Below are positions 41,071 through 62,786 of a DNA stretch of 64,000 nucleotides, piece after piece. The position numbers were made by a program, and so were the translations under genes. Position 1 is the stretch's first letter. Every line of letters begins with the position of its first letter. The notes under the pieces were generated by a model, which saw only the letters and a program-made list of their open reading frames with translations, ran no database searches and was not told the origin of the DNA. This stretch comes from Massilia arenae (GTDB taxonomy: Bacteria > Pseudomonadota > Gammaproteobacteria > Burkholderiales > Burkholderiaceae_D), in the NCBI RefSeq assembly GCF_008014745.1, contig NZ_VPFD01000015.1, positions 186,001 to 250,000 on the forward strand, given 5' to 3'.

Positions 41071-41185
41071 GGCGATTTGCTGGTGAAAGATGAGGGAATT
41101 ATACGCGGATGGATAGTTGATGCCACAGTCATCAGACATCTTATCTCTCTCGCATGAGCTCAGGTTCAGTACCGGTATAGCCACC

Positions 41186-41214
41186 TTGCAGAATTGGCCC
41201 GACCAAACTAGAAT
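41186..41214 (+). promoter_or_regulatory. Promoter with spacer-embedded operator, CE12/PL1-CE8 operon
   Basis: TTGCAG (41186-41191), a 17-bp spacer and TAGAAT (41209-41214) precede ATG 41244 by 29 bp. The spacer contains TTGGCCCGACCAA (41194-41206), an inverted repeat of the FadR-family TGGTNNNACCA class. Matching layouts occur at 46138 and 57979. Confidence 0.85.
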
Positions 41215-41243
41215 CGTCTATCAAAAAAACATCAGGAGACTTC

Positions 41244-41981
41244 ATGCCGTCCGTTCGCCTCACTCCCCTGCTCTCTCTACTGCTGGCCGGCGCCGCCTGG
41301 TCCGCGCCAGCGGCGCACGACCGCGTGATCCTGGTCGGCGACTCGACCATGGCCAGCAGCACCGGCTATGGCGACGCCTTGTGCGCCCGTCTGACACCCG
41401 AAACCGCCTGCCTGAACCTGGCGCGCGGCGGGCGCAGCTCGGGGAGCTTTCGCGCCGAAGGCCGCTGGGATGAGGTGACGGGCTTGCTGCGCGATGGCGC
41501 AGGCTACCGCCGTACTTATGTGCTGATCCAGTTCGGCCACAACGACCAGCCGGGCAAGCCCGGTCGCTCGACCGACTACGCGACCGAATTCCCCGTCAAT
41601 ATGACCCGTTACGTTCAAGAAGCGCGCGCGCTCGGCGCTGTGCCGGTGCTGGTGACCCCGCTCACGCGCCGCAGCTTCAGGCAGGGCTATGTACAGGACG
41701 ACCTGGCGCCCTGGGCCGGCACGGTGCGCAAGATCGCCGCCGCGACCGGCACCCCGCTGGTCGACCTGAATGCCCTGTCGTTGGCCGCAGTCCAGGCCAT
41801 GGGACCGAAGGAAGCCGACAAGCTGGCGCGCGTCGGCGCCAATTTCGACCATACCCATGTCGGCCCGCTGGGCGCGCAGCGCTTCTCGGATATCGTCGCA
41901 CGCGAACTGCTGCGCAAAGTCCCGGCCCTCGCCCCGGCGTTCGCGCCAGGCGAGCGCACCGCCGCGCGGGGCGCGGAGTGA
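41244..41981 (+). CDS. Rhamnogalacturonan acetylesterase-like SGNH hydrolase (CE12)
   Basis: The 245-residue exported enzyme has a signal peptide (cleavage near APAAH) and the SGNH blocks. These are the nucleophile Ser in VGDSTM near residue 33, Gly in ARGGRSSGS, Asn in FGHNDQPGK near 98 and the DHTHVG Asp/His near 205. It would remove acetyl groups from rhamnogalacturonan or pectin in the periplasm or outside, opening the polymer to lyases. It is first in an operon with the PL1-CE8 fusion, which starts at an overlapping GTGA. Confidence 0.86.
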   Translation: MPSVRLTPLLSLLLAGAAWSAPAAHDRVILVGDSTMASSTGYGDALCARLTPETACLNLARGGRSSGSFRAEGRWDEVTGLLRDGAGYRRTYVLIQFGHNDQPGKPGRSTDYATEFPVNMTRYVQEARALGAVPVLVTPLTRRSFRQGYVQDDLAPWAGTVRKIAAATGTPLVDLNALSLAAVQAMGPKEADKLARVGANFDHTHVGPLGAQRFSDIVARELLRKVPALAPAFAPGERTAARGAE

Positions 41982-44900
41982 GCGGCGTGCGTGCAGTCGC
42001 CGCTGCCCTCACCCTTACCGCACTTATCCCGGCCACCTCCCTCGCGGCAGCTCCGATGCCCGGTCCGATCGCCGAGCGCCAGCACGCGCCGGCGGACGGC
42101 TGGGCCGCGCAGCAAGGCGGCACCCGCGGCGGCGCCCTCGCCAGTCCGGCCCACGTGTACACGGTGGCCGACCGCGCGCAGCTGGTCGCCGCCCTGGAGG
42201 CGCCGGCGCCGGCGCGCATCGTGCGCGTGGCGGCCGCCATCGACATGAGCGAGGGCCGACCTTTCCGCGACCACGACGACCAGGCCGGCCGCGGCGCCGT
42301 GCGCATTCCGTCGAACACCACCCTGGTTGGCATCGCCCCGGGCGCCGGCTTAATTCATGCCAGCCTGATGATCACCGGCGTCGAACAGGTGATCGTGCGC
42401 CACCTGGCGATCCGCAATCCCTGCGACGTCGCGCCGCAATGGGATGCGCAGGACGGCGCCAAGGGCAACTGGAACTCGGAATTCGACGGCATCACGGTGC
42501 GCGCCGCGCGCCACGTCTGGATCGACCACAACAGCTTCACCGATGCGCCCGACACCGACGACCGCGCCCCGATCGAGAACGGCAAACGCAAGCAGTGCCA
42601 CGATGGCGCGCTCGACATCACCCAGGGCTCGGACCTGGTCAGCGTCACCTACAATCACTTCGCCCAGCACGAAAAGAACATGCTGATCGGCGCCGGCGAC
42701 CGTTTCACCGGCGACCAGGGACGGCTGCGAATCACCCTCAAGGGCAACCTGTTCGAGCACGTCGCCGAACGCGCCCCGCGGGTGCGCTATGGCCAAGTCC
42801 ATCTGCTGAACAACTACTATGTGGGCGAGCGCGGACGCGCGGTGTACGGCCACGGCTACAGCATCGGCGTCGCGCATGCCTCGCGTCTGATTTCCGACGC
42901 CAATGCCTTCGAGGTGGCCGGTGCGAGCAGCTGCAAGCAGCTGGTACGCGACCCGGCGCGCAGCCCCGGCGTTTTCGTCGACACCGGCTCGCTGCTCAAT
43001 GGACAGCCGCTGAACGGCTGCCCGCACGGCGGCGACGCCGGCTGGCGCGTCCCCTACCCTTATACGGCGTTGCCAGCGTCGCAGGTGCCCGCTCACGTGC
43101 GCGCCAATGCAGGCCCGCGCCCAGGCGCCAGCGCCGGCGCTGGCGCCATCGTGGAGGCCCGCATCGCGCCGGCGACCGGCGCGCCATTCGTGCTGCGCGC
43201 CCGGCGCGCCGCCCACGGCGACTGGCAAGGCGCCAGCCTGCAACTGGTCGACGGCGGCAAGACGCTGCAGGTCGAACTGCTGGCCGCACGCGATGGCCAG
43301 GTGCAGCGCCTGAAGCAGATACGGCGCCGCACCGTGTCCACCGACATGCCGATGGTGCTGGGCTTTTCCGCCGACGCCGGCCAATTGGCGGCGCTGGTCG
43401 ATGGCGAACGCGTGACCACCGCCCTGGCCGAGCCCTTGCCGGCCACCCAGCCACTCGACTGGGACGCTGGCGGGCACCGGCTGCTCGACCTGCGCGGCGG
43501 CCCCTTCGATGCGGCGCCAGCACGCCTGAGCGCCCAGGTCGCCGAGCGGCGCATCCTGCTGCAGGCCGGTGACCCGGCCGCCGTCATCCCGATTGGCGGC
43601 GCCGCCGGCTTCGAGGTAGTCAGCGACGATCCGCGCATTGCCACAGCCAACGTGGCGGCTGACGTCGCGCACGGCGCCGTACGCGTGACGCCGCTCGCGG
43701 CCGGACAAACCACACTGACCGTGCGCAGCGCCAGCGATCCGTGGGCCCAGGCCAGCTTCGCGGTAGTGGTCGGGGAGCGCTTCATCGAACCGCGCAGCAC
43801 CAAGGGCGTAGCAACCCATCCGCAGCTGGACGAGCGTGGCGTGCCACCCGATACGCCGCTGCGCCTGGCCCTGGCGCCCGGCGCCGAACTGACGGGGGAA
43901 GGCAGCATCCGGCTGCTGCGCAAGCGCGACGGCCTGCTGGTGGCGGTGGTCCGTCCCGGCGAAACGGTGACCGCCATCGGCCCTGCGCCGCGCCAGCGCC
44001 TGGTGCGCCAGCACGCGCTGCGGATCGTCGACGGCGAACTGCGCGCGCGCCTGCCGCAGGCACTCGAGTACGACACCGAGTACGAGGCGCTGGCCGAGGC
44101 AAGTCTGGTGCGCGGCGGGGCTTTCCACGGCGCGCGCTGGCGCTTTCGCACCACGCCGCACCGCCCGGTCGGCGACAGCGTGACGGTGGCCACCGAAGGA
44201 CGGTCGCATTTCCGCACCGTGCAGGGCGCACTCGACTACGCGATGTCGCTGCCGCGCGCGCAGCCGCTCACCATCAATGTGCGAGACGGCGTCTACCCCG
44301 AACTGCTGTACCTGCGCGACAAGGATAACCTTACCCTGCGTGGCGCCAGCCGCGAAGCGACCGTCATCCGCGCCGCCAACAGCGACACCCTCAACCCCGG
44401 CTCCGGCACCGGACAAGAAGCCGGCACGCCCGGGCTGCTGGGCGGGCGCGCGCTGTTCCTGGCCCAGGACAGCGACCTGCTCGACCTGCGCGACATCGCC
44501 CTGCACAACAGCACCCTGCGTACCGACGGCCACTCGCCGCAAGCCGAGACCCTGTTCTTCAGCAGCCGCGATGGGCGCCTGATGGTACGCAACGCGCACT
44601 TCCTGAGCGAGCAGGATACGCTGCAGCTGACGGGGTATGCCTGGTTCCACAAGTCGCTGGTGGAAGGCAATGTCGACTTCATCTGGGGAAACAACCGCGC
44701 CGCGCTGTTCGAGGACAGCGAGATCCGCAGCATCGGCGACAGCGCCCGTCCGGAGAGCGGCGGCTACATCGTGCAGGCGCGGACGGTCGGCGCCACCGAA
44801 CCGGGCTTCGTCTTCCTGCGCTCGCGCCTGACCCGTGGGGCCGGGCCGGCCGGCAACGTGCCGGCGGACGGCAGCGCCTATCTGGCGCGCTCGCCCGGCA

Positions 44901-45145
44901 CCGCCAACACCTGGGACAACGTGGCCTTCATCGATTGCAGCGTCGGCCCGCACATCGCCGCCGACGGCTGGCTGCAGCGGCCTGCGCCGAATCCGGCCGA
45001 AGGCGGATGGCGCGAATACGGCAACCGGGGGCCGGACGGCCAGGCGCGCAGCTACGGCGGCTTCATGCTCGAGCGCGAACAGGCCGCGCAGCTGTCGAAC
45101 CGCGCCGCGGTGTTCGTGGGGCGCGGCTGGAACCCGCAACCCTAG
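41978..45145 (+). CDS. Pectate lyase (PL1)-pectin methylesterase (CE8) fusion
   Basis: The 1055-residue exported protein joins an N-terminal PL1 beta-helix (residues about 30-385; DHNSFTDAPDTDD, RAPRVRYGQVHLLNNYYVG) to a C-terminal CE8 pectinesterase (about 730-1050). CE8 catalytic Asp residues lie in SEQDTLQLTGY near 878 and VDFIWGNNRAAL near 898. Between them are a concanavalin-like linker (395-510), a BIG2-like Ig domain (511-600) and an SbsA-like Ig domain (605-725). CE8 demethylates pectin and PL1 cleaves the resulting pectate by beta-elimination, so the fusion couples both steps. It starts at GTG 41978 overlapping the acetylesterase stop. Confidence 0.88.
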   Translation: MSGVRAVAAALTLTALIPATSLAAAPMPGPIAERQHAPADGWAAQQGGTRGGALASPAHVYTVADRAQLVAALEAPAPARIVRVAAAIDMSEGRPFRDHDDQAGRGAVRIPSNTTLVGIAPGAGLIHASLMITGVEQVIVRHLAIRNPCDVAPQWDAQDGAKGNWNSEFDGITVRAARHVWIDHNSFTDAPDTDDRAPIENGKRKQCHDGALDITQGSDLVSVTYNHFAQHEKNMLIGAGDRFTGDQGRLRITLKGNLFEHVAERAPRVRYGQVHLLNNYYVGERGRAVYGHGYSIGVAHASRLISDANAFEVAGASSCKQLVRDPARSPGVFVDTGSLLNGQPLNGCPHGGDAGWRVPYPYTALPASQVPAHVRANAGPRPGASAGAGAIVEARIAPATGAPFVLRARRAAHGDWQGASLQLVDGGKTLQVELLAARDGQVQRLKQIRRRTVSTDMPMVLGFSADAGQLAALVDGERVTTALAEPLPATQPLDWDAGGHRLLDLRGGPFDAAPARLSAQVAERRILLQAGDPAAVIPIGGAAGFEVVSDDPRIATANVAADVAHGAVRVTPLAAGQTTLTVRSASDPWAQASFAVVVGERFIEPRSTKGVATHPQLDERGVPPDTPLRLALAPGAELTGEGSIRLLRKRDGLLVAVVRPGETVTAIGPAPRQRLVRQHALRIVDGELRARLPQALEYDTEYEALAEASLVRGGAFHGARWRFRTTPHRPVGDSVTVATEGRSHFRTVQGALDYAMSLPRAQPLTINVRDGVYPELLYLRDKDNLTLRGASREATVIRAANSDTLNPGSGTGQEAGTPGLLGGRALFLAQDSDLLDLRDIALHNSTLRTDGHSPQAETLFFSSRDGRLMVRNAHFLSEQDTLQLTGYAWFHKSLVEGNVDFIWGNNRAALFEDSEIRSIGDSARPESGGYIVQARTVGATEPGFVFLRSRLTRGAGPAGNVPADGSAYLARSPGTANTWDNVAFIDCSVGPHIAADGWLQRPAPNPAEGGWREYGNRGPDGQARSYGGFMLEREQAAQLSNRAAVFVGRGWNPQP

Positions 45146-45180
45146 GCGGCCAGCACGCGCCACGAGATTTGCCCGTACAC

Positions 45181-45209
45181 TTGCAACATCAACCATACCA
45201 AACTAAGAT
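45181..45209 (+). promoter_or_regulatory. Promoter of the UxuR-like gntR gene with a degenerate operator
   Basis: TTGCAA (45181-45186), 17 bp and TAAGAT (45204-45209) repeat the spacing of the pectin promoters. The spacer keeps only the right half-site (ACCAAA), so autoregulation would be weak. Confidence 0.6.
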
Positions 45210-45256
45210 TCGCTAGTTTTGGCGCCCACTGCCAATAATCCAGGACGAACCGATCG

Positions 45257-45955
45257 ATGAAGAAGACCCCAGCGCTGAATGAACCTAGCACCACCGAGCC
45301 GCGGCTGTACCGGGTCGTCTCGGCCAAGATCGAGGAGCTGATCCGCGCCGAGAACATCCGCGCCGGCGAGCGCCTGCCGGCCGAGCGCGAGCTGGCCGCC
45401 AAGCTCGGGGTCAGCCGCACCTCGCTGCGCGAGGCCCTGATCGCGCTCGAACTGAGCGGCAAGGTCGAAGTGCGCGGCGGCTCCGGGGTCTATGTCAGCG
45501 AGGACGTCGCGCCGAAGGCCGACGTGCCGACCGTCGGCCCCGGTCCGTTCGAAGTACTGGCGGCGCGCCGCCTGATCGAGGTCGAGGTCGCGGCGCTGGC
45601 GGCCAAGCACGCCAGCGATTCGGCGATCGACGCGATCCTGGTTGCGGTCGAAGAGATGGAGCAGCACCACGAAGACCGCAGCGGCAACGAATCGGCCGAC
45701 CGCAACTTCCATCTGGCGATCGCGCGCGCCACCGGCAACAGCGCGATGGTCGGCGTGATCGAATACCTGTGGAGCCAGCGCGGCTCGCTGTGGCACAAGC
45801 TGAAGGAACACTTCCAGACCGAGGAACTGCGCCAGCAGACGCTGATCGACCACCGCAACATCTTCGCCGCCATCGCCTCGCACGACGTCGCAGGCGCACG
45901 CCAGGCCATGCGCGCCCACCTTGACCGCGTCACCCGCACGTTCTCGCGCGGCTGA
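45257..45955 (+). CDS. GntR-family (FadR/FCD) regulator, UxuR/ExuR-like
   Basis: The 232-residue protein has a winged HTH (residues 18-80; AGERLPAERELAAKLGVSRT, SLREALIALELSGKVEVRGG) and an FCD domain with metal-site motifs NFHLAIARATGNS and DHRNIFAAI. The N-terminal half resembles UxuR/ExuR, repressors released by uronates. It lies at the centre of the pectin genes and its own promoter has the same -35/-10 spacing. I infer that it binds the TGGYCNGACCA operators; the ligand is probably galacturonate or a related acid. Confidence 0.85.
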   Translation: MKKTPALNEPSTTEPRLYRVVSAKIEELIRAENIRAGERLPAERELAAKLGVSRTSLREALIALELSGKVEVRGGSGVYVSEDVAPKADVPTVGPGPFEVLAARRLIEVEVAALAAKHASDSAIDAILVAVEEMEQHHEDRSGNESADRNFHLAIARATGNSAMVGVIEYLWSQRGSLWHKLKEHFQTEELRQQTLIDHRNIFAAIASHDVAGARQAMRAHLDRVTRTFSRG

Positions 45956-46272
45956 GTCGCGCTTCCTCGCCTTCTTCCTCGCCTTCTTCCCGACCTCCCT
46001 CCCGGCATCGGCGCCACGCACGGCCCGGGCAGCCGGGCGCGTGCCCATTCCTTCTCGCGCCGTGCCCACGACGACTGGCGCTCCACGTCACTCGGAAACC
46101 AAAAGGTTAGACCAGTTTAATTTCTGGCTCGTCCACATTGCAAAAGTGGTCTGACCAAAGTAGAATTGTTTTCATACCAATCATCGGCGGCCCGGCGGAA
46201 ACGGGGCGAACATGCGCGCGATCCGGAGAGAACATCCGGACGCATTCGACGACTACAGGCAGGAGACACGCA
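45956..46272 (+). promoter_or_regulatory. 317-bp gap with operator-promoter for the receptor-pectinase operon
   Basis: TTGCAA (46138-46143), 17 bp and TAGAAT (46161-46166) form the promoter. Its spacer holds the perfect palindrome TGGTCTGACCA (46147-46157). A second weaker site AGGTTAGACCA is at 46104-46114. The leader runs about 100 nt to GTG 46273. The first half (45956-46090) is pyrimidine-rich with CTTCCTCGCC repeats and no recognised gene. Confidence 0.82.
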
Positions 46273-49083
46273 GTGAACTACCTTCGCACGACCAAGCAAC
46301 CCCGCTTCATCCTTTCGGCCGTCGCACTCGCGGCGATGACCATGGCGAACCTCGCAGCGGCGCAGGAAGCGCCCATGCAGCGCATCGAGGTGACCGGCTC
46401 CTCGATCAAGCGCCTGGCGACCGAGAACGCCCTGCCGCTGACCACCTACAAGGCGGAGGAATTGGCCAACCAGGGCCTGACTACGATGTCCGAGGTCGCG
46501 GTGGCCCTGACCGTGGCCGCGACCAACGAGCCGGTGGGCGGCGGTGGCGGCGGCACCATGATCAATATGCGCGGCCTGAACACCAACCGCACCCTGGTGC
46601 TGCTCAACGGCCGCCGCCTGGCCAACGAGGCGCTGGGCGCGAGCTCGGTCAACGTCGACGTCATCCCGATGGCCGCCATCGACCGGGTCGAGGTGCTGCG
46701 CGACGGCGCCTCGGCGCTGTACGGCACCGACGCGATCGCCGGCGTGGTCAACTTCATCACCAAGCGCTCGGTACAGGACGTGACCCTGCACGCCAGCACC
46801 GTGCAGCCGCAGGAATCCGGCGGCGGCGACCAGAAACGCGTCACCATCGTGGCCGGCAAGGGCGATATCGCGAAGGATGGCTGGAACGTCTACACCGCCT
46901 TCAGCGCCCAGCGCCGCGACTCGCTGCTGCAGCGCGACCGGCCGCAGATCTGGGACCCCGCGAAGCTTGCCTCGCTGGGCGGCACGCCGTTCAATTCGAA
47001 TACCTCGGGCGGCTCGGCCTCGCCGGCGAACTTCACCATCTATCGCAACGGGCGTTCGGCCAACATCACCGGCAACCCCTATTACGCGAATGGCTGCGTG
47101 GCGCCAGGGCTGGCGCAGACGACGGTGCCATCCACCCGCACCGCCGCCAACGGCGGCAATACCTGCATCACCGACCCGGGCATCTACCCCGAACTGCTGC
47201 CGGAAAGCCAGCAAGTCACCCTGTTCACGAAAGCCAGCCTGGCGCACGGCGAGGGCAAGATGCTCACCGTCGAACTGAACCTGGCGCGCTCGTACATCGA
47301 TGCCGTCAGCGGCCCCCAGCCTTTCGGCAACAACACCGACTATGACCGCCTCACGGCCTCGCGCCGTCCGCTGATGATGACGTCCGCCAGCAAGTGGTAT
47401 CCGGGCGGCAGCGGCGGCGTGCCGGCGGTGGCCGGCCTGAACGGCGAAGACCTGGCGCTGACCTGGAGCCTGGACGAACTCGGCCCGGTCAAGCTGCACG
47501 ACGTGCAGACCAACCACCGCCTGGTGATCGCCGACGAAGGCCAGGTCGCCGATTGGGATTACCGCGTGGGCGCGTCCTACGGCTACAGCCACCGCGACAG
47601 CGGCTTCAAGGAAAACTTCGTGCGCACGCCGGCTGTGTATGCGGGCGTTGCCAACGGCATCCTGAACCCCTTCGGCGCGCAGGACGAAGCCGGCCGCGCC
47701 TACCTCGAGGGCATCTCGGCCGACGGTGAAGTGTTCCGCAAGGCCGATGTGCGCTACTACGGCGTCGACTTCAACCTGAGCCGCACCCTGATGGACCTGC
47801 CGGGCGGCGCTCTGGGCCTGGCCGTCGGCGGCGACTGGCACCGCGAGACCTACGAGGAAAACGTGCCGATGGTCGGCGACGAAGTGGTCTGGCGCGTCAA
47901 CGGCACGCCGGGCAACAACCCGAGCGGCGCACGCCGCGTCTCGGGCCTGTACGCCGAACTCGATGCGCCGGTCACCAAGGACCTGAACCTGAACTTCGCG
48001 GTGCGCGGCGACCATTTCAGCGACTTCGGCTCGACCTTCAATCCGAAGGCCAGCTTCCGCTACCAGCCGATGAAGGAACTGATGGTGCGGGGCACCGTCA
48101 GCACCGGCTTCCGCGCTCCGACCCTGCCCGAGCTGTACGGCGTGCCGCGCAGCCTGCAGGCGTCGACCTCGAGCTGGGACGACCCGCTGCTGTGCCCTGG
48201 CCCGACCCCGAACGTGGCCGGTTCCGGCGCCCTCACCACCGACCCGCGCTTCGCCGGCCTGGGCCTGGACGCCGAACGTGTCTGCAACACGCGCCTGACC
48301 ACGCTGGTCGGCGCCAATCCGGACCTGGAGCCAGAGAAGTCGAAGACCTATACGGTCGGCTTCGTGATCGAGCCGGTCAAGAACTTCGTGGCGACCATCG
48401 ATTTCTGGAAGATCGACATGAAGCGCACGATCGCCCAGATCAACGAAGACTCGATCTTCGACAACCTGGACCGCTACGGCGACCTGTTCGTGCGTAATCC
48501 CGACGGCACGCTGGCGTATATCACCAAGACCCGCCTGAACATGGGCGGCCTGAAGACCCGCGGCATCGACATCGGCCTGAACTACCTGGTGCCGACTGCC
48601 AACTGGGGCCGCTTCGGCTTCTCGATGGACGGCACCTACACCGACCGCTACGAGGGCCAGAACGACGCGGGCAGCCCATGGGTCGACAGCGTCGGCCGCA
48701 TCGGCGCCCTGTCCACCGGCTCGACCTCGGCCAACACGTATATCTTCAAGTGGAAGCACCAGGCGCGCGTGAACTGGAGTTATGGCCCGTTCTTCGCCCA
48801 GCTGACGCAGCAGTACACGTCGAGCTACGAAGACACCAACGCCCTGCCGACCCAGCAGCCGGGCCAGCCGTTCTATAACGTGATCGAGCCCTACCGCGTG
48901 TACAACCTGTCGACCACCTACAAGGTGTCTCCGAACTTCAAGCTCGGCGCCGGCGTGAACAACCTGTTCGACACCGATCCGCCGCTGTCGAACCAGCGCC
49001 TGTCATCGCGTGTCGTGTTTGCGCAGAACATCGCCAAGCCGATCGGCCGTGCCTTCACGGTGCGCGCGGATTACACGTTCTAA
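46273..49083 (+). CDS. TonB-dependent receptor for pectin oligomers (inferred)
   Basis: The 936-residue receptor begins at GTG 46273 (AGGAG seven bases upstream; the longer frame from 46138 overlaps its promoter) with a signal peptide ending near NLAAAQ. The plug contains IEVTGSSIKRLATENALP and SALYGTDAIAGVVNFITK near residue 157. The barrel ends in FTVRADYTF. It is cotranscribed with a pectate lyase and a polygalacturonase under the TGGTCTGACCA operator, so oligogalacturonides are the probable ligand; this is inferred from context. Confidence 0.86.
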   Translation: MNYLRTTKQPRFILSAVALAAMTMANLAAAQEAPMQRIEVTGSSIKRLATENALPLTTYKAEELANQGLTTMSEVAVALTVAATNEPVGGGGGGTMINMRGLNTNRTLVLLNGRRLANEALGASSVNVDVIPMAAIDRVEVLRDGASALYGTDAIAGVVNFITKRSVQDVTLHASTVQPQESGGGDQKRVTIVAGKGDIAKDGWNVYTAFSAQRRDSLLQRDRPQIWDPAKLASLGGTPFNSNTSGGSASPANFTIYRNGRSANITGNPYYANGCVAPGLAQTTVPSTRTAANGGNTCITDPGIYPELLPESQQVTLFTKASLAHGEGKMLTVELNLARSYIDAVSGPQPFGNNTDYDRLTASRRPLMMTSASKWYPGGSGGVPAVAGLNGEDLALTWSLDELGPVKLHDVQTNHRLVIADEGQVADWDYRVGASYGYSHRDSGFKENFVRTPAVYAGVANGILNPFGAQDEAGRAYLEGISADGEVFRKADVRYYGVDFNLSRTLMDLPGGALGLAVGGDWHRETYEENVPMVGDEVVWRVNGTPGNNPSGARRVSGLYAELDAPVTKDLNLNFAVRGDHFSDFGSTFNPKASFRYQPMKELMVRGTVSTGFRAPTLPELYGVPRSLQASTSSWDDPLLCPGPTPNVAGSGALTTDPRFAGLGLDAERVCNTRLTTLVGANPDLEPEKSKTYTVGFVIEPVKNFVATIDFWKIDMKRTIAQINEDSIFDNLDRYGDLFVRNPDGTLAYITKTRLNMGGLKTRGIDIGLNYLVPTANWGRFGFSMDGTYTDRYEGQNDAGSPWVDSVGRIGALSTGSTSANTYIFKWKHQARVNWSYGPFFAQLTQQYTSSYEDTNALPTQQPGQPFYNVIEPYRVYNLSTTYKVSPNFKLGAGVNNLFDTDPPLSNQRLSSRVVFAQNIAKPIGRAFTVRADYTF

Positions 49084-49110
49084 GTCCGTCGTTCCCCGCC
49101 TGCGCGAAAA

Positions 49111-49137
49111 GTCGTTACCTCCGGTGGAGGTAACGAC
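49111..49137. repeat. Hairpin GTCGTTACCTCC/GGAGGTAACGAC
   Basis: A perfect 12-bp stem with a GGT loop lies between the receptor and pectate lyase genes. The outer eight bases (GTCGTTAC/GTAACGAC) equal those of the hairpin at 16385-16411, while the inner four differ with compensating changes. A CCCGCCTGCGCG half-element precedes both. Confidence 0.85.
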
Positions 49138-49152
49138 GCCTCCTGGAGCGCC

Positions 49153-50313
49153 ATGAAGCACCTGTCCAATTCCCTGATCTTGTGCGTCGCCGCGGCCGCT
49201 GCCGGCTGTGCCAGCGACGCGCCTCACGATGTTTCGTCCATCCCTCTGATGCGCCAGGTGGCGCCGCCCGATGGCTGGGCGGCGCAGGCCGGCGGCACCC
49301 GGGGCGGCGCCGACGCACCGGTCGCCAACGTATTCACCGTCAGCGATGCCGCGCAGATGCGCCAGGCGCTCGGCAAGTCGGTCCAGGGCAGCCGCATCGT
49401 GCAGGTCGCCGGCGTGATCGATATGAGCGAAGGCCGGCCCTACGCCGATCATGCCGACCAGTCCAGGCGCGGCCGCGTCGCGGTGCCTGGCAATACCACG
49501 CTGGTCGGGCTCGGGCCGCGATCAGGCTTCGTCAACGCCCACCTGACGGTAAGCCGGGTGTCGCAGGTGATCATCCGCAATCTGCACCTGCGCAATCCCT
49601 GCGACGTCGCGCCGCGCTGGGATCCGAAGGACGGCGACGGCAACTGGAATGCCGAGTTCGACGCGATCGCGATCGTCGCCTCGACCCACGTCTGGGTCGA
49701 CCGCAACAGCTTCACCGACGTTCCGGTGACTGACGACACGCTGCCGGTCGTCGATGGCAAGACCCAGCAGTGTCACGACGACGCGCTGGACATCCGCGAC
49801 GCCAGCGACTACGTCACGGTCTCGTACAACCACTTCGCCCTGCATGCCAAGAACACACTGATCGGCGCCAGCGACAAGGCCGAGGGGGATGCCGGCCACC
49901 TGCGAATCACCGTCAGCAACAACCTGTTCGAATTCATATCCAGCCGCGCGCCGCGGGTGCGCTTCGGCCAGGTCCATCTGTTCAACAACTACCACGTCGG
50001 CGACCGCAAGCACCCGGCCTACCGCCACGACTACAGCATCGGCGTGGCCAGGCAGGCGCGCATCGTCTCGCAGGCCAACGTATTCGAGGTGGCCAATGCG
50101 CGCGACTGCGCCGACGCCGTGAAACCCTTCGCACAGGGGCCGGATGCGGGCAGGTTCAGCGACACCGGCTCGCTGCTGAACGGCGCGCCGCTGGCCGGCT
50201 GCGGCGTGGACGCAGCGCCAGGTTTCGAGGTGCCCTACCCATTCTCGCCGCTGCCCGCGGCTTCGGTCGCGGCGCATGTGCGCAGGCACGCCGGCGCCGG
50301 CGCCGGCAAGTAA
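49153..50313 (+). CDS. PL1 pectate lyase, lipoprotein
   Basis: The 386-residue protein has a lipobox (AAAAAGC) and a PL1 right-handed beta-helix. It aligns along its length with the PL1 half of the fusion at 41978: DGWAAQAGGTRGG near residue 40, RNPCDVAPRWDPKDGDGNWN near 148, WVDRNSFTD near 180 and RAPRVRFGQVHLFNNYHVGD near 265, which contains the catalytic Arg. It would cleave pectate at the cell surface to 4,5-unsaturated oligomers. It follows the receptor gene and precedes the GH28 gene by 19 bp. Confidence 0.9.
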   Translation: MKHLSNSLILCVAAAAAGCASDAPHDVSSIPLMRQVAPPDGWAAQAGGTRGGADAPVANVFTVSDAAQMRQALGKSVQGSRIVQVAGVIDMSEGRPYADHADQSRRGRVAVPGNTTLVGLGPRSGFVNAHLTVSRVSQVIIRNLHLRNPCDVAPRWDPKDGDGNWNAEFDAIAIVASTHVWVDRNSFTDVPVTDDTLPVVDGKTQQCHDDALDIRDASDYVTVSYNHFALHAKNTLIGASDKAEGDAGHLRITVSNNLFEFISSRAPRVRFGQVHLFNNYHVGDRKHPAYRHDYSIGVARQARIVSQANVFEVANARDCADAVKPFAQGPDAGRFSDTGSLLNGAPLAGCGVDAAPGFEVPYPFSPLPAASVAAHVRRHAGAGAGK

Positions 50314-50332
50314 CCATCCCACGAAAGACATC

Positions 50333-52174
50333 ATGCGTATCAAGCAAGGCAAGATCATCGACACCCGGCGCCGTTCCCTGCTGCGCGCCGCCTCGGCCTC
50401 GGTGGCCGGTCTCACCGCCGGCTGCCACACGGGCGGCCAGGCGGGCGCAGTCACGGCTCCCGATCCCTGGCTACGCGCACAAGCCATCGTGGATCGCTTT
50501 AGGCAGCCGCTGACCTTCCCTCAACGCGATTTCAGCATCACCGACCACGGCGCCAGGCCGTGCAAGGTGGTGCCAGTGGACGGCTACGTCGCCCATCACG
50601 AGCCCGGCAAGTTGACGACGCCGGCGCCGGATGCCCCGGACTGCTACCACGCGATCGCCGCCAGCATCGCGGCCTGCAGCGCCGCGGGCGGCGGGCGCGT
50701 CCTGATCCCGGCCGGGAACTGGCTGGTCAAGGGACCGATCGTCCTCAAGTCCAACGTCAACGTGCACCTGGCCAGCGGCGCCCACGTCTACTTCAGCAAC
50801 GATCCCGAGGATTTCATCAAGTACGGCGAGCATGACTGCGGTGCGAACGGCAGGCTGACCCTGTCGCGCTGGCAGGGCAACGACTGCCTGAACCATTCGC
50901 CGCTGGTCTACGCCTATGGCCAGGACAATATCGCCCTGACCGGCGAGGACTGGACCAGCATCCTCGACGGCCAGGGCGGCGTGCCGCGCGCGAACGGCGA
51001 CACCTGGTGGGACTGGAAGGGCAAGCGCAAGCCTGGCGCGCGCCAGCACGAAGCCCAGACCGCCGTCAATCCGCGTACCCCGGCGTCGATCCGCGAGGTG
51101 GCGCCCGGCCTCGACGCGGCCCGGGCCGCGCTGCTGGAAGGCGGCAACGACAAATGGCGCACCGACGAGGCCTGGCTGCCGACCCTGTCCGAGGCCGGCG
51201 TGCCGGTGGCCCGGCGCGTGTTCGGCCGCGGCCACTACCTGCGTCCCTGCATGGTCGAATTCATCGGCTGCAGCAATGTGCTGCTGCAGGGTTATCAGCT
51301 CAATGGCGCACCATTCTGGCAGCATCACCCGGTCAATTGCAGCAAGGTAGAGATCCGCGGCGTGCACATGGACAGCCTGGGACCGAACAGCGACGGCTTC
51401 GACCCGGAAGCCTGCGACACCGTGCTGGTGGATGGCTGCACCTTCAATAGCGGCGACGACTGCATCGCGATCAAGGCCGGCAAGAACCGCGACACCCGCT
51501 TCGGGCCGACCCGCAACGTCGTGATCCAGCGCTGCGTCATGAATAGCGGCCATGGCGGAGTGACCCTGGGCAGCGAGATGGCCGGCGGGATCGAGCACGT
51601 GTATGCGCAAGATATCGAATTCCGCAACACGCACTGGGCCACCGACCCGCTCAACACCGCGATCCGGCTCAAGACCAATATGAACCGCGGCGGCTTCCTG
51701 CGCCACTTCTACGTGCGCAACGTCACCATGCCGAATGGCGTGAACCTCAAGCCCCAGTTCTACAAGCCGCTGCCAGGCTCGCCGATCGCGCCGAAGTCGG
51801 TAGCGCCCGGCGCCGGCGCCGTGATCACCTTCGACTGCGACTACGCGCCGAACGCCGACAATCTGCGCACCCGGCCGCCGGTGGTGGAACACATCCACAT
51901 CTCGGGCGTCAGGGTGGGCAATGTGCCGACGGCGGCCGGGCCGCGTTCGTGCTACCAGGCGATGCTGTTCCTGGGGCCGGTCGGCTTCGACTACAACGGC
52001 AGCGAGGCGGCCGAGATCCTGCCGATCCGCGACGTGACCATCACCGACTGCGATTTCGGCACACCGGTGAACGCCGAACAGCCGTGGTATCTCTACAATG
52101 TGCGCGACGTCAGGCTCAGGAATGTCCGTATCGGCGGCAAGGTGATCGACACGGTGCTCTCGCACCGCGCCTGA
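50333..52174 (+). CDS. GH28 polygalacturonase, exo-type (Tat signal)
   Basis: The 613-residue enzyme has a twin-arginine-like export signal (TRRRSLLRAASASVAG followed by LTAGC) and the GH28 catalytic blocks NSDGFD near residue 352, GDDC near 374, NSGHGG near 404 and RLK near 445. The length and N-terminal extension fit exo-poly-alpha-galacturonosidases such as PehX, which release digalacturonate or galacturonate. The start at 50333 gives the Arg-rich signal. It is a close paralogue of the protein at 60822 and ends the receptor-PL1-GH28 operon. Confidence 0.88.
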   Translation: MRIKQGKIIDTRRRSLLRAASASVAGLTAGCHTGGQAGAVTAPDPWLRAQAIVDRFRQPLTFPQRDFSITDHGARPCKVVPVDGYVAHHEPGKLTTPAPDAPDCYHAIAASIAACSAAGGGRVLIPAGNWLVKGPIVLKSNVNVHLASGAHVYFSNDPEDFIKYGEHDCGANGRLTLSRWQGNDCLNHSPLVYAYGQDNIALTGEDWTSILDGQGGVPRANGDTWWDWKGKRKPGARQHEAQTAVNPRTPASIREVAPGLDAARAALLEGGNDKWRTDEAWLPTLSEAGVPVARRVFGRGHYLRPCMVEFIGCSNVLLQGYQLNGAPFWQHHPVNCSKVEIRGVHMDSLGPNSDGFDPEACDTVLVDGCTFNSGDDCIAIKAGKNRDTRFGPTRNVVIQRCVMNSGHGGVTLGSEMAGGIEHVYAQDIEFRNTHWATDPLNTAIRLKTNMNRGGFLRHFYVRNVTMPNGVNLKPQFYKPLPGSPIAPKSVAPGAGAVITFDCDYAPNADNLRTRPPVVEHIHISGVRVGNVPTAAGPRSCYQAMLFLGPVGFDYNGSEAAEILPIRDVTITDCDFGTPVNAEQPWYLYNVRDVRLRNVRIGGKVIDTVLSHRA

Positions 52175-52188
52175 TCAGGGAGTGATGG

Positions 52189-54630
52189 TCAGGGAGTGAT
52201 GCGGACATAATCCAGGTCGGCGTAGGCGCCCGGCGTTCCGGTCGCGAACACGCCGACCTGGGCGCCGACCCAGCGGCCCATGGTAGCGTCGAAGGGCTCG
52301 CCCAGCGACGTGTACCGGAGGCCGTCGGCGCTGTAAGAGAACGACACCCGCGCGCCATGCGTCACGTGCATGCGCAGCGTGACCGCGTATCCAGGCAATG
52401 CCGGTCCCACCGTCTCGGCGCAGGCGCCGTCCTGGCCGCAGCGCACGCCGATTATGCGCGGAAGGCCGTCGACGCGGCGCAGGCCGAACCAGTCGCTGGC
52501 CAGGCCCATCACGCCGAGCCCCACCTGGTCGCCATCCTGCTGCGCGCGCAGCTCCACCTTCGCCGTCACACCGAAGGCCGAACCCGGGAATTTCTGGGTC
52601 AGCACTGACGGCAGCTGCCGTATCGGCGCCGCCGCTTGCGCGAACAGGCGCAGAAAGCCCGGTCGGGCGTCCAGCGCATGCCAGCCGGCCTGCGGATTGG
52701 CCGTCCATTGCCACTGCAGGCCCAGCGCCGGGCCGTCGAACTCGTCGCCTACCGCCGGCTCGCGCCGCGCGAAGACTCCCGGCACCGGCTTGGCGTGCTC
52801 GATATGCGGCTGTCCCACACCCGCCTTGGCGGATGGCTCGCCGATCAGCGGCCAGTCGTCGATCCAGCGCAGCGGCTGCAGGTGCACCACGCGGCCGTAG
52901 GCGCGCCGGTCCTGGAAGTGGAAGAACCAGTCGCTGCCCTGCGGCGTCGTCACCCAGGCGCCCTGGTGCGGGCCGTTGATATCGGTCGCGCCCTGCTCCA
53001 TCACGATCCGGTCTTCGTACGGGCCGTCGATGCGGCGCGAACGGAACACAGATTGCCAGCCATGCTCGACGCCGCCCGCCGGCGCGAACACGTAGTACCA
53101 GCCGTTGCGCTTGTACAGCTTGGGACCCTCGAGGGTGCGGTAGCCCGGCAGGCGGTTGCCGTCGATGACCACCTGGCCCTCGCTGTCGAGCAGGCTGCGC
53201 CCGTCCGGCGCCATGCGGCGCAGGGTCAGCACATTATTGAAGCCGGCCCGGCTCTTGGCCCAGGCGTGGATCAGCCATGCGCGGCCATCGTCGTCCCACA
53301 GCGGCGCCGGGTCGATGATGCCCTTGCCGGGCAAGAGCAGGTGCGGCGTGCTCCAGGGACCGGCGAAGTCCGTCGCGGTGCTGACGTACACGCCGTGGTC
53401 CGGATCGGGATGGAAGATCCAGAAGCGCCCGTCATGGTGGCGCAGGCTTGGCGCCCATACCCCCTTGCCATGCTGCGGCGTCGCGAAGGTCGCCTGCGGC
53501 GTCAATTGCGGCAGCGCGTGGCCGACCAGCTCCCAGTTGACCATATCGCTCGAGGTCAGCAGCGGCAGGCCGGGGGCGCTGGCGAAGCTGGACGAGACCA
53601 TGTAATAGCGTTCGCCAACCCGGATCGCGTCCGGATCGGAATAGTCGGCATGCAGGATCGGGTTGCGGTAGCGGCCGTCGCCCAGGTCGGCCGACCACGG
53701 CGCACGCGCAGGCATGGCGCCCAGCTGCTGGGCGAGGAAACGGTCCATGGCGTCGACCGTCGGCGCCAGCCACGGATCGACTAGCCAGAACGAATGCGGC
53801 GCGCCCGCCAGCGCGACGGTATCGGTCGCGATGCCATGCCCGGCCAGCCTGGCCGCCAGCGCTTCGCGCCCGCTGGAAAAGCGCGGCACGCTGCTGACGA
53901 TGAACTGCACCGGTGGGCTGTCCTCGCCGGCGTGGGTCAGGGGCGAGGCCTCGCGCCACAGCGCTGCCTTTTCGGCATAAGGACCGCCGAACCAGGCCCC
54001 GGCCGCCGACGGATTCTTGGCCGGATCGTCTTCATGCCGCAGCGCCTCGGGCGAGGTGAAATCGGACAGGCCATCGATATTGACGATGGCGCGCACCTCG
54101 CGCGGCCGCGTCATGCCGACCAGGGCGGCGATCTGGCCGCCGGCCGAGCCGCCCGCGAGCGCGATCCGCTCCTTGTCGAATCCGAACTCACCCGCGTGCA
54201 TGCGCAGCCAGTCCAGCGCCGCCTTGACGTCGTCGATCGCGGCCGGATAGCGGGCCTGGCCCGACAGGCGGTAGCTGACGGTGGCGGCGGCATAGCCGCG
54301 CGCCGCCAGGCGCGCCGCGAGCGGCGCCATATTCGTGCGCTCGCCGCTGCCCCAGCCGCCGCCGTGCACCAGCAGCACCAGCGGCGCGGGCTTTGCATCG
54401 GGTGCCGGCAGGTAGAGGTCGAGCCCCAGCGCCAGCTCGCCGCGCCGCGCATAGACCAGGTCCTTGCGGATCCGGACCGGCGCCGGCGCCTCGGCGCTGG
54501 CGATGCGGATCTGGGGATAGTCACCCACCAGCTTGCGGTAGGTGGTTTCGGCGTTGTAGGGAGACTGGGCGGCGGCCGGCGTCAGCACCGCGGCCAGCGC
54601 CAGTGCGGCGGCAACAGGAGCAGGTCTCAT
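52189..54630 (-). CDS. Bifunctional alpha/beta-hydrolase esterase-GH43 glycosidase
   Basis: The 813-residue exported protein has an N-terminal BD-FAE/acetylxylan-type esterase (oxyanion HGGGWGSG at 89-96, nucleophile Ser162 in GGSAGG, His279 in GAPHSFW). A GH43 five-blade propeller follows (about 320-610; general base Asp in YSDPDAIRVG near 332). A C-terminal beta-sandwich (about 625-813) resembles the GH43 C2/DUF1349 domain. Likely substrates are acylated arabinan, arabinogalactan or xylan side chains of pectin. It overlaps the aldose epimerase gene by 4 nt and is last in the garD-udh-epimerase operon. Confidence 0.85.
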   Translation of the reverse strand: MRPAPVAAALALAAVLTPAAAQSPYNAETTYRKLVGDYPQIRIASAEAPAPVRIRKDLVYARRGELALGLDLYLPAPDAKPAPLVLLVHGGGWGSGERTNMAPLAARLAARGYAAATVSYRLSGQARYPAAIDDVKAALDWLRMHAGEFGFDKERIALAGGSAGGQIAALVGMTRPREVRAIVNIDGLSDFTSPEALRHEDDPAKNPSAAGAWFGGPYAEKAALWREASPLTHAGEDSPPVQFIVSSVPRFSSGREALAARLAGHGIATDTVALAGAPHSFWLVDPWLAPTVDAMDRFLAQQLGAMPARAPWSADLGDGRYRNPILHADYSDPDAIRVGERYYMVSSSFASAPGLPLLTSSDMVNWELVGHALPQLTPQATFATPQHGKGVWAPSLRHHDGRFWIFHPDPDHGVYVSTATDFAGPWSTPHLLLPGKGIIDPAPLWDDDGRAWLIHAWAKSRAGFNNVLTLRRMAPDGRSLLDSEGQVVIDGNRLPGYRTLEGPKLYKRNGWYYVFAPAGGVEHGWQSVFRSRRIDGPYEDRIVMEQGATDINGPHQGAWVTTPQGSDWFFHFQDRRAYGRVVHLQPLRWIDDWPLIGEPSAKAGVGQPHIEHAKPVPGVFARREPAVGDEFDGPALGLQWQWTANPQAGWHALDARPGFLRLFAQAAAPIRQLPSVLTQKFPGSAFGVTAKVELRAQQDGDQVGLGVMGLASDWFGLRRVDGLPRIIGVRCGQDGACAETVGPALPGYAVTLRMHVTHGARVSFSYSADGLRYTSLGEPFDATMGRWVGAQVGVFATGTPGAYADLDYVRITP

Positions 54631-55502
54631 AGGGACGCGCCGCGAAAGGTGCAGCGCCGACGCAGCGTCGCACCAGGGGCGAGCACGGTCAGGCCGGGCT
54701 GGCCCGACAGATTATGCGCATTGATCGGATGATCCACCGGCTCGAAGCAGAAGAAATCGCGTCCCGGCGGAATATAGAGGATGAAATAATCCATGTCGGC
54801 CTCGATCTCGAGCGCCACGCCGCGCGCCGGCCAGGCGATGCGCGCCCATCCCGGCCAGCCATCGAACACATGGTCGACACCGTCTTGCGGCAGCGCGGCG
54901 GGCGTGTCGAAACGCCAGTGATCGGGTATGTCGCCGCGGCTCAGCGGCAGTTTATCCGGACCGCTCGACCATACCCCGTCAGCGCCCGCTTCGAGCAGCG
55001 CGCCTTGCGGGTCCGGCATCCAGGGATGCAGGCCGATCCCGAACGGCAGCGCCGCCGCGCCGGTATTGCGCAGCGCGAGATCGACCACCAGCGCTGCGCC
55101 GTCGAGCGTGTAGCGCAACTCGGCTTCATAGGAAAATGGCGAAGCGTCGGGACGCGCCAGGGTCAGCGTCAAGACCGAGTCGCTGTGATCCGCCACCTGC
55201 CAGGCCTGCTGCCAGCCATCGCCGTGGATCGGACACGGCTCGCCGGCCCGGTTCGGCCCCGGGACGTATTGTCGGCCTTCGAACGCAAACCCCGAAGGCG
55301 CCATGCGGTTGGACCAGGGCAGCAGCGGGAAGCAGGCCAGCTGCGCGGGCGTCGGGACGCCGCTTGCATCGGACGGAAATGCGCGCAACAGCGCGCTCGC
55401 CTCGCCACCGGCAATCCAGTCCAGCCGCGCCAGTCCGCCGCCCACCTGGGGCACGACTTCGGCCACCAGGCTGGCGTTGCGCAAGACCAGGCGCTCGATC
55501 AT
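54627..55502 (-). CDS. Aldose 1-epimerase family protein
   Basis: The 291-residue beta-sandwich protein has galactose-mutarotase features: FPLLPWSNRMAP near residue 56, the catalytic His in GDGWQQAW/PFGIGLHPWM near 165 and a Glu in FFCFEPVDHPINAHN near 262. It would equilibrate sugar anomers, for example galacturonate before uronate dehydrogenase, which uses one anomer. It lies 4 bp after udh, consistent with that role. Confidence 0.82.
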   Translation of the reverse strand: MIERLVLRNASLVAEVVPQVGGGLARLDWIAGGEASALLRAFPSDASGVPTPAQLACFPLLPWSNRMAPSGFAFEGRQYVPGPNRAGEPCPIHGDGWQQAWQVADHSDSVLTLTLARPDASPFSYEAELRYTLDGAALVVDLALRNTGAAALPFGIGLHPWMPDPQGALLEAGADGVWSSGPDKLPLSRGDIPDHWRFDTPAALPQDGVDHVFDGWPGWARIAWPARGVALEIEADMDYFILYIPPGRDFFCFEPVDHPINAHNLSGQPGLTVLAPGATLRRRCTFRGASL

Positions 55503-55506
55503 CGCC

Positions 55507-56334
55507 TCAATACTGCGGGCCGTCGAGCAGGAACTTGCCGCCCTGGTACATCGTGGTCACGTCGTCCTTGGCCGGGAACTCGGACGAATCCGGGAACAGG
55601 TGGGCGAACTTCGCCGAGCTGTCCTTCGGCTTGTAGCCCAGGTGCGAGGCCAGGCGGTTGTCCCACCAGGTGCTGTCGTTGTCCGACATGCCGTACACGA
55701 TGGTGTGGCCGACGCGCGGTGCGAACAGCGAGCAGCGCAGCAGTTCGGTCAGGTCGTCATAAGACAGATAGGTGCTCATCATGCGCTTGTTGGCCGGCTC
55801 CGGGAAGCTCGAGCCGATGCGCACGCAGACGGTCTCGATGCCGAAGCGGTCGTAGTAGTAGCGCGCGATCTGTTCGCCGAAGACCTTCGACAGGCCGTAG
55901 TAGCTGTCGGGACGGGTCGGCGAATCGGCGTCGAGCACCGTGGTCACCGGGTGATAGCCGATCGCGTGGTTCGAGCTGGCGAAGATCACGCGGCGGGTGC
56001 CGGCCTTGTGCAGCGCTTCGTACAGATTGGCCACGCCGAGGATATTGGCCTGCATGATGGGTTCGAACGGCTTCTCGGTCGAGATGCCGCCGAAGTGCAG
56101 CACCGCATCCACGCCCTCGAGCAGGGCCAGCACGGCTTGTTTGTCCGCCAGGTCGCACTGGACGATTTCTTCGCCCGGGCCGGCCGGGCCCATGTCGATG
56201 ACGTCGGACAGGCGCACCACATCGGCCCAGGGCTTGATGCGCTCACGCAGCACTTTGCCCAGGCCGCCGGCGGCGCCGGTCAGCAGGATGCGTTTGAAAG
56301 GTTTGCCGGTCTTGTTTTGTACTGCAGCGGTCAT
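55507..56334 (-). CDS. udh: Uronate dehydrogenase
   Basis: The 275-residue short-chain dehydrogenase has the NAD motif LTGAAGGLGKVLR, the active-site YYGLSKVFGE (Tyr/Lys) near residue 143 and the Udh-typical RIGSSFPEPANKRMMSTYLS near 172. It oxidises D-galacturonate or glucuronate with NAD+ to the aldarolactone in the cytoplasm. It is between garD and the aldose epimerase. This is the first step of the oxidative pathway encoded in the window. Confidence 0.9.
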   Translation of the reverse strand: MTAAVQNKTGKPFKRILLTGAAGGLGKVLRERIKPWADVVRLSDVIDMGPAGPGEEIVQCDLADKQAVLALLEGVDAVLHFGGISTEKPFEPIMQANILGVANLYEALHKAGTRRVIFASSNHAIGYHPVTTVLDADSPTRPDSYYGLSKVFGEQIARYYYDRFGIETVCVRIGSSFPEPANKRMMSTYLSYDDLTELLRCSLFAPRVGHTIVYGMSDNDSTWWDNRLASHLGYKPKDSSAKFAHLFPDSSEFPAKDDVTTMYQGGKFLLDGPQY

Positions 56335-56356
56335 TCAGGTCTCCAATAATATGCGT

Positions 56357-57898
56357 TCAGGTCACGGGCGCCGGATTGAACAGCGCAAGCGCATTATGCA
56401 GCTTCCAGCGCTCGGCCCATGTCTTGCGGCCGCTGGCCACGTCCAGGATCATGCGGAACAGCTCCCAGCCGACGTCCTCGATGGTGGCGTCGCCGCTGGC
56501 GATGCTGCCGGCGTCGAGGTCCATCAGGTCGTGCCAGCGGCGCGCCAGTTCGGTGCGGGTGGCAACCTTGATGACCGGGACCGCGGCCAGGCCGTATGGC
56601 GTGCCGCGGCCAGTGGTAAAGATGTGCACGTTCATCCCGGCGGCCATCTGCAGCGTACCGCAAATGAAATCGCTGGCGGGCGTCGCGGCGTAGATCAGGC
56701 CTTTCTGCTGCAGCCGGTCGCCCGGCGACAGCACGCCGGTGATCGCGGTGCTGCCCGACTTGACGATCGAGCCCATGGCTTTTTCCACGATATTCGACAG
56801 GCCGCCCTTCTTGTTGCCGGGCGTGGTGTTGGCGCTGCGGTCGACGCCGCCGCGCACCAGGTAATCGTCGTACCACTGCATCTCGCGCACCATCGCCTGC
56901 GCCACCTCGGGGCTGGATGCGCGCGCGGTCAGCTGGTCGATGCCGTCGCGCACCTCGGTCACCTCGGAAAACATCACGGTGCCGCCGGCACGCACGATCA
57001 GGTCGGTGGCGAAGCCCAGCGCCGGGTTGGCGGTCACGCCAGAGAAAGCGTCGCTGCCGCCGCACTGCATGCCGACCACCAGGTCGGACGCTGGACAGGT
57101 TTCGCGGCGGCGCGCGTTGAGTTCTTGCAGGTGCTGTTCGGCGGTGCTCATCAGCGCATCGATCATCGACATGAAGCCGACGTGCTGTTGGTCTTGCAGG
57201 GTCACCACCGACGGCGCGGCATTGCCGATCGGGATGGCGCCGGCCGGGAACAGGCGTGCCGGCGGCAGCTTCTCGCAGCCCAGGCTCACGACCATCACGC
57301 TGTCGCCGAAATTCGGGTTCCTGGAGAGGTTGCGGATGGTGCGGATCGGGATGTCGGCGCCGGGAGCGTCGATCGCCACGCCGCAGCCGTACACGTGTTC
57401 GAGCGCCACCACGTCCTCGACGTTCGGATAGCGCGGCAGCAGCTCTTCGCGGATACGCTTGACGGCGTAGTCGATCACGCCCGACACGCACTGCACGGTG
57501 CTGGTGATCGCCATCATATTGCGGGTGCCGACCGATCCATCCTTGTTGCGGTAGCCCTCGAAGGTATAGCCGTCCAGGCGCGGCCCGGCATCCACGGCGT
57601 GGGTGCCGATTGGCAGGTCGTCGAGCGAACGCGCGGCCGGCATGCGCAGCACGCGCTCCGAGACCCAGCTGCCGCGCGGGATCGCGCCGTCGGCGTAGCC
57701 GATGGTGACGCCATAGCGGATCACCGCCTCGCCATCCTGCAGGTCCGTCAACGCCACCTTGTGGCCTTGCGGGACGCCTTCGAGCAGCACCAGGCCGTCC
57801 GGGAATGCGGTGCCGGCGGGCAGGCCGCCGTCGTTGACGACGATCGCGACGTTGTCGCTGGCCTGCATGCGGATGGTGCGCGGAACTTGGTGATTCAT
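56357..57898 (-). CDS. garD: Galactarate dehydratase
   Basis: The 513-residue protein is collinear with E. coli GarD, from [20 protein letters not shown] near residue 14 to the ending FNPAPVT. The (Fe-dependent) UxaA/GarD superfamily signature [20 protein letters not shown] is present near 285. It dehydrates galactarate to 5-keto-4-deoxyglucarate, the substrate of KdgD. The start at 57898 was selected (AAAGAGA upstream); an in-frame upstream start is possible. It is first in the operon garD-udh-epimerase-esterase/GH43. Confidence 0.93.
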
Positions 57899-57978
57899 GT
57901 CTCTTTGCCTGTCTCTTGGCTGATTGGGGAGGGTCATTTTTAGTATGCCATAAATAAATCGAATGCGGCTAGTCCACC

Positions 57979-58017
57979 TTGCGATTTTGGCCGGACCAAA
58001 TTAGAATGGCCTGACCA
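57979..58017 (+). promoter_or_regulatory. Promoter with two operators, GH105 operon
   Basis: TTGCGA (57979-57984), 17 bp and TAGAAT (58002-58007) form the promoter. Operator 1 TTGGCCGGACCAA (57987-57999) fills the spacer. Operator 2 TGGCCTGACCA (58007-58017) starts at the last base of the -10 box and covers the expected start site. The leader to ATG 58149 is about 135 nt. The divergent garD promoter was not identified with confidence. Confidence 0.85.
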
Positions 58018-59555: not shown

Positions 59556-59568
59556 TCCGGGGGACACC

Positions 59569-60813: not shown

Positions 60814-60821
60814 GGAGCGAC

Positions 60822-62702: not shown

Positions 62703-62786
62703 GGTCAGGCCAATTCGTAAATATTTTTACTTTGGCCTGACCAAAAGTCGTTGAGTTGCCATAGAATTACAAAACTGGCCTGACCA
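62703..62786 (+). promoter_or_regulatory. Three-operator control region of the last receptor gene
   Basis: Three copies of the pectin operator are visible: GGTCAGGCCAA (62703-62713, in inverse orientation), TTGGCCTGACCAA (62732-62744) and TGGCCTGACCA (62776-62786). TAGAAT (62762-62767) lies between the last two and is a candidate -10; its -35 is unclear. The receptor ATG is at 62850. Confidence 0.8.

Follow-up and report, generated by a model that had tools for sequence, protein, structure and literature searches.

A promoter-embedded operator shared by pectin operons of Massilia arenae and its relatives, and a GntR/FCD protein as its likely regulator

The region of the Massilia arenae genome analysed here, a stretch of 64,000 nucleotides referred to below as the window, carries several operons of pectin genes, and the question that it raises is whether these respond to a common regulator and through what kind of promoter. 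On the forward strand, the window encodes a GDSL (CE12-type) esterase followed by a pectate lyase-pectinesterase fusion (41244-45145), a TonB-dependent receptor with a pectate lyase and a GH28 protein (46273-52174), a Glyco_hydro_88 (GH105-type) protein with DUF4861 and GH28 proteins (58149-62693), and the start of a second TonB-dependent receptor gene (62850-64000), which continues beyond the window and specifies 987 aa in total. Two GntR/FCD regulators are present, P0001 on the forward strand (45257-45955), which is the proposed binder of the sites described below, and P0002 on the reverse strand (40342-41070), in line with kdgD, the start of which at 41070 is proposed from the point where the alignment of its relatives begins. 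A divergent operon on the reverse strand (52189-57937) encodes galactarate dehydratase, an NAD-dependent epimerase-type protein that we infer to be uronate dehydrogenase, an aldose epimerase and a GH43 protein with an esterase domain. Galactarate dehydratase scores 912 bits against TIGR03248 (cut-off 731) and KdgD 428 bits against TIGR03249 (cut-off 374). The GH43 protein (52189-54630, minus strand, 813 aa) has an N-terminal feruloyl-esterase-like (BD-FAE) domain.

Three of these operons are preceded on the forward strand by composite promoters of the form TTGCRR-17 bp-TAGAAT: the CE12/PL1-CE8 operon by TTGCAG-17 bp-TAGAAT at 41186-41214, the receptor/PL1/GH28 operon by TTGCAA-17 bp-TAGAAT at 46138-46166 and the GH105/DUF4861/GH28 operon by TTGCGA-17 bp-TAGAAT at 57979-58007. 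In every case the spacer holds the inverted repeat TGGYCNGACCA (operator O1, at 41195-41205, 46147-46157 and 57988-57998, respectively), which begins 9 bases into the composite and stops 3 bases short of the second hexamer. Hexamers, spacer lengths and the shared offset of the repeat are exactly those reported in a preliminary description of this DNA. Two hexamers separated by 16-18 bp (17 bp in all three) with an operator between them fit the layout of a sigma70 promoter with a spacer operator; a promoter scan of part of the window gave one consensus match in the scanned stretch. Exact copies of TGGYCNGACCA occupy six positions in the window, the three spacers and the sites that start at 58007, 62733 and 62776.

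The composite, but not the palindrome by itself, sets these promoters apart from the remainder of the genome. With up to 3 mismatches allowed, there are exactly three composites in the 5,974,536 bases, all inside the window, and none with the control pattern, in a genome scan of the kind proposed in the preliminary description. The core palindrome alone has 21 forward and 22 reverse matches, compared with 37 and 37 for the reversed-pattern control, and the plain operator was rejected as a regulon marker because it is not enriched genome-wide over that control. A mechanical test for open reading frames is uninformative on the other plain matches, since even the intergenic operator copies of the window fall within antisense reading frames.

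Conservation of the motif in orthologous promoters, the other comparison proposed in the preliminary description, was found as well: 76 of the 294 family genomes scanned, spread over 9 of 44 genera, contain the composite within 1 mismatch, against a single match overall for the reversed pattern, and it is retained in the aligned promoters of relatives. A class-wide scan returned 2 of 274 genomes, this one and one weak match, and control matches in three, so that a general design of the class is unsupported, with no signal outside the family. When the distance from the operator to ATTCTA (the reverse of TAGAAT) was left free between 0 and 20, with control matches in two genomes, the spacing was 3 bases in 83 of 106 pairs, 18 bases in seven, 7 bases in eight and 8 bases in eight. 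All seven 18-base cases belong to the genus of the window, and in the two of them that were inspected, the window itself and one relative (G056, locus L095), the site precedes the second receptor. Twelve of the 16 pairs with spacings of 7 or 8 come from genus g26, in genomes without a 45257-type regulator, and these sites are therefore probably those of another protein, perhaps a different GntR regulon in a different register. The g26 genomes with TGGTCNGACCA 7 or 8 bases from TAGAAT are G059, G082, G101, G116, G142, G174, G207, G225, G233, G246, G269 and G281.

Which protein might read the operators? The product of 45257 has an N-terminal GntR winged helix (PF00392, 71.7 bits, cut-off 27) and a C-terminal FCD domain (PF07729, 89.9 bits, cut-off 24.3), which places it in the GntR family, FadR/FCD subfamily; among the best 80 of 135 matches is a Massilia timonae CCUG 45783 protein with 99% identity. 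Counted at E ≤1e-60, a cut of our own choosing, 45257-type matches occur in 80 of the 294 genomes and 40342-type matches in 129. The composite and the first regulator are found together in 73 genomes, the composite alone in 3, the regulator alone in 7 and neither in 211; among genomes that have the second regulator the corresponding counts are 73, 3, 5 and 48. The link persists within eight genera (142 genomes; CMH p 1.5e-22), with the reservation that the relatedness of the genomes keeps the Fisher and CMH values from being read as if each genome were an independent event. In one of the seven regulator-bearing genomes without a composite, G120, the operator is present at the 3-base spacing. 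Furthermore, 20-kb maps of relatives, chosen for holding composites, place the composite directly ahead of the first-regulator gene in 15 loci from eight genera, and in 79 named loci, which were found via the protein and not the motif, the 300 bp upstream of the regulator gene contain a composite (up to 3 mismatches) in 55, compared with 3 of 584 control windows. This arrangement is expected if the gene is autoregulated. As separate observations, G193, G111, G138 and G177 have three regulator matches each at the same cut, and L093 has one copy between two composites.

These patterns of co-occurrence, within genera as well, and the promoters of the regulator gene itself in relatives support the 45257 protein as the likelier of the two predicted binders, the role for which it had been put forward as a candidate. 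Co-occurrence could in part mean that pectin clusters carry operators and regulator along together, and it cannot separate linked regulators. A third regulator that travels with the clusters might thus bind the operators, the 45257 protein merely accompanying them, and the 19 GntR-domain matches in this genome supply other candidates; we nevertheless regard this as improbable, since the composite lies ahead of the 45257-type gene itself in the eight genera of the maps, albeit at loci picked for composites, and in the majority of the loci found through the protein.

A comparably low probability attaches to the second GntR protein, 40342, as the binder of the composite operators, either by itself or as a competitor of the first. 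It is present in all 76 composite-bearing genomes (composite without it in 0, second regulator without composite in 53, neither in 165), and its gene diverges from the first composite of the window. However, only 3 of the 51 genomes that have the second regulator and lack the first contain a composite, and those three look weak or sit away from pectin genes. The upstream DNA of the second regulator differs too. In 20 genomes fetched from these 51 (L250-L269), the 300 bp ahead of its gene contain CAGTCATCAGACAAC within 3 mismatches in 14, six of which have it exactly, compared with 4 of 400 shuffles within 3 mismatches, whereas TGGYCNGACCA within 1 mismatch was found in none of the 20; the remaining 6 have no clear upstream element. 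A similar element in the window, GTCATCAGACA at 41128-41138 on the forward strand, is a candidate operator of the second regulator, and CAGTCATCAGACAAC is probably that protein's own site. On its co-occurrence and its different upstream element, the second regulator was judged unlikely as the main binder.

The promoters were also compared beyond their spacers. The set consisted of the 79 named loci and the window; 74 of the 80 have a composite, 106 distinct composites in all, from which 55 representatives below 70% identity were taken. In the aligned composites, further palindromes stand in fixed register with O1, one (O0) 22 bp upstream and one (O2) 19 bp downstream. Operator likeness at -22 has a z of 13.0, with 22 of the 55 promoters (40%) matching in 8 or more of 10 letters; at +19 it has a z of 12.0, with 16 of 55 (29%), against a baseline of 0.13%; a weak rise occurs at -43 (z 2.8). 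Other offsets are also raised, for example +5 (z 8.8), yet none of the 55 promoters reaches 8 of 10 letters there, as expected from self-overlap of a palindrome. Among the 106 composites, O0 is present in 82, O2 in 51, both in 44 and neither in 17, where the control gives 0.45% per offset. The spacer operator of the preliminary description stands, and its single-operator design is too simple, there often being more than one, in a number that varies with the downstream gene.

The window itself contains such sites, all on the forward strand. O0 is found at 41173-41183 (CGGTATAGCCA, 5 of 6 arm letters), 46125-46135 (TGGCTCGTCCA, 6 of 6) and 57966-57976 (CGGCTAGTCCA, 5 of 6), the last between the third composite and the galactarate dehydratase gene, which is transcribed divergently, and a possible, weak extra site 21 bp upstream of the second O0 (46104-46114, AGGTTAGACCA, two mismatches) may be compared with the weak peak at -43. 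O2 of the third promoter is exact (58007-58017, TGGCCTGACCA) and overlaps the final T of TAGAAT. Outside the window, an O2-like site, TAGAATGGCCTGACCATTCC, shares the T of a TAGAAT in L021 (G000 contig C21, 28235-28245, minus strand); it lies directly upstream of a possible small cupin-like gene and may be due to chance. The second receptor gene is preceded by exact operators at 62733-62743, which is 18 bases upstream of TAGAAT at 62762-62767 and hence of different geometry, and at 62776-62786. These two operators flank the TAGAAT and are 43 bp apart. Ahead of the gntR gene at 45257, a decayed skeleton (45181-45209, TTGCAA-17 bp-TAAGAT), missing from the output of a simple promoter scan, retains of O1 no more than its right half, ACCA; in the clade of the window, the regulator promoter has retained hexamers and spacing and its O1 has decayed, for which reason autoregulation in this genome is probably weak. 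The three operons first described are therefore members of an incomplete list, to which the second receptor and the regulator gene are to be added. Galactarate catabolism is likely under the same regulator, to judge from the intergenic region that the third promoter shares with the intracellular galactarate dehydratase operon and from an exact operator 57-99 bp ahead of the aligned start of galactarate dehydratase in five loci of relatives (L079, L081, L087, L092 and L104).

Classified by downstream gene (127 distinct composites from 108 loci, 7 of them without a classified gene), O2 is a mark of mainly GH105 and regulator promoters: it occurs in 23 of 24 ahead of GH105 and 36 of 55 ahead of the regulator, in 1 of 21 ahead of CE12, 1 of 20 ahead of receptors and 3 of 7 unclassified cases. 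For O0 the respective counts are 19 of 24, 40 of 55, 14 of 21, 20 of 20 and 4 of 7. That the register is a functionless by-product of promoter duplication within pectin clusters seems very improbable; regulator and pectin genes are indeed duplicated in some relatives, but the register has been kept over 55 promoters of less than 70% identity and over 9 of 44 genera while the flanking bases diverged.

O0 may be a weaker binding site of the 45257 protein, or it may serve another factor. Its consensus, TGGCTAGTCCA, has an inner CTAGT unlike O1 (TGGTCWGACCA) and O2 (TGGCCTGACCA), and may for that reason not belong to the same protein; of the 31 TGGCTAGTCC contexts that the fetched loci contain, 29 keep the O0 frame, and a further such context, with TCG replacing TTG, keeps it as well. 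Activators that touch the polymerase often bind about 43 bp upstream of the start. The center of O0 falls at about that distance from the expected start. Poor first hexamers, the separate consensus, its consistent frame and the presence of O0 at all 20 receptor promoters, with O2 at one of these, would likewise suit an activator site rather than a repressor site. We consider this unlikely, though less so than the alternatives above, because the outer letters TGG...CCA are common to O0, O1 and O2, and because the Massilia CE12 promoters have a shift variant, ATGGCCTGACC, that is an O2-like site.

Taken together, the data are probably best explained by sigma70-type promoters repressed sterically by one UxuR/ExuR-like GntR/FCD protein, that of 45257, acting through an array of operators and released by a pectin product. 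A dimer on O1 would occupy the spacer between the hexamers and, by filling it, make binding of repressor and RNA polymerase mutually exclusive, so that the two probably compete for the same DNA. A dimer on O2 would cover the 3' end of the second hexamer together with the probable start site, and a dimer bound to O0 would occupy the DNA immediately ahead of the first hexamer. The weaker O0 (-22 bp) and, at the GH105 promoter, the strong O2 (+19 bp) would lengthen the array in steps of about two helical turns, control becoming tighter with more operators: O1 is joined by O2 at GH105 promoters and, in many relatives, also ahead of the regulator gene, and mostly by O0 at receptor and esterase promoters. 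Galacturonate or a near metabolite, as a breakdown product of pectin, would free the repressor. Repression by dimers bound at these sites is suggested by the family of the protein, namely by the FadR-subfamily operators and NanR as described in PMC4494728 and PMC8012715; adjacent dimers might conceivably be in contact. The proposal that all secreted pectin functions would switch as one is more plausibly recast as a single regulator that acts with graded stringency.

A more elaborate version remains tentative, and we doubt it somewhat: three or four operators of distinct types specific to gene classes (O0 TGGCTAGTCCA, O1 TGGTCWGACCA, O2 TGGCCTGACCA), in steps of about 20 bp and in register with first hexamer, spacer and second hexamer, would form a ladder for a cooperative chain of dimers of a single GntR/FCD protein on nearly one face of the DNA, and the number and kind of rungs would decide which of receptor, esterase, oligosaccharide hydrolase and regulator come on earlier and which later. 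The separate consensus of O0 makes this slightly less likely.

The motif, first noticed by eye, becomes the basis for predicting a pectin regulon in Massilia and in relatives that include Duganella and Undibacterium, along with a candidate regulator, another regulator that has an element of its own, and operator classes; the related promoters, which carry from one to three operators, would form a natural series on operator number versus stringency. A literature search, with most subscription papers outside its scope, found no paper that joins Massilia, pectin and GntR and none with the string TTGGTCNGACCAA, and among the titles listed in further searches none named such a regulon. The regulon proposed here may overlap with the predictions of an earlier study of hexuronate regulons.

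Among known systems, the tet operators place an operator between -35 and -10, where repressor binding excludes polymerase. The present operators would likewise overlap polymerase contacts, but here linked and unlinked promoters keep one register, with extra operators at fixed steps and in gene-dependent number. The consensus of FadR-subfamily operators, according to PMC4494728, is TKGT/ACMA, in which 3 nt usually separate GT from AC, a pattern that O1 (TGGTCNGACCA) matches, with C for T in one half of many copies. The same source gives a gap of 3 nt for ExuR and 2 nt for UxuR, the palindrome here having the 3-nt gap of ExuR, and it describes weaker half-sites 7-12 nt from the site center, in contrast to the whole palindromes, differently spaced, at -22 and +19. 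The 45257 protein shares GntR and FCD domains and hexuronate-linked genes with UxuR and ExuR, its best NCBIfam matches, which it reaches at 153 bits (cut-off 442) and 138 bits (cut-off 396), far below equivalog level, and its targets differ in being mostly exported pectin enzymes and receptors. GguR, a GntR regulator of galactarate and hexuronate genes according to PMC5507952, may have its counterpart in the second regulator beside kdgD. Among PDB sequences, the 45257 protein is best matched by NanR of Escherichia coli, a GntR/FCD repressor of which three dimers bind cooperatively on one operator region, as PMC8012715 relates. NanR, according to the same paper, uses close direct GGTATA repeats and has a 32-residue N-terminal extension, whereas the DNA-binding domain of the 45257 protein starts at residue 17 and its putative sites, three at fixed steps, are palindromes that stand apart from one another, at distances of 19 and 22 bp and in register with the promoter.
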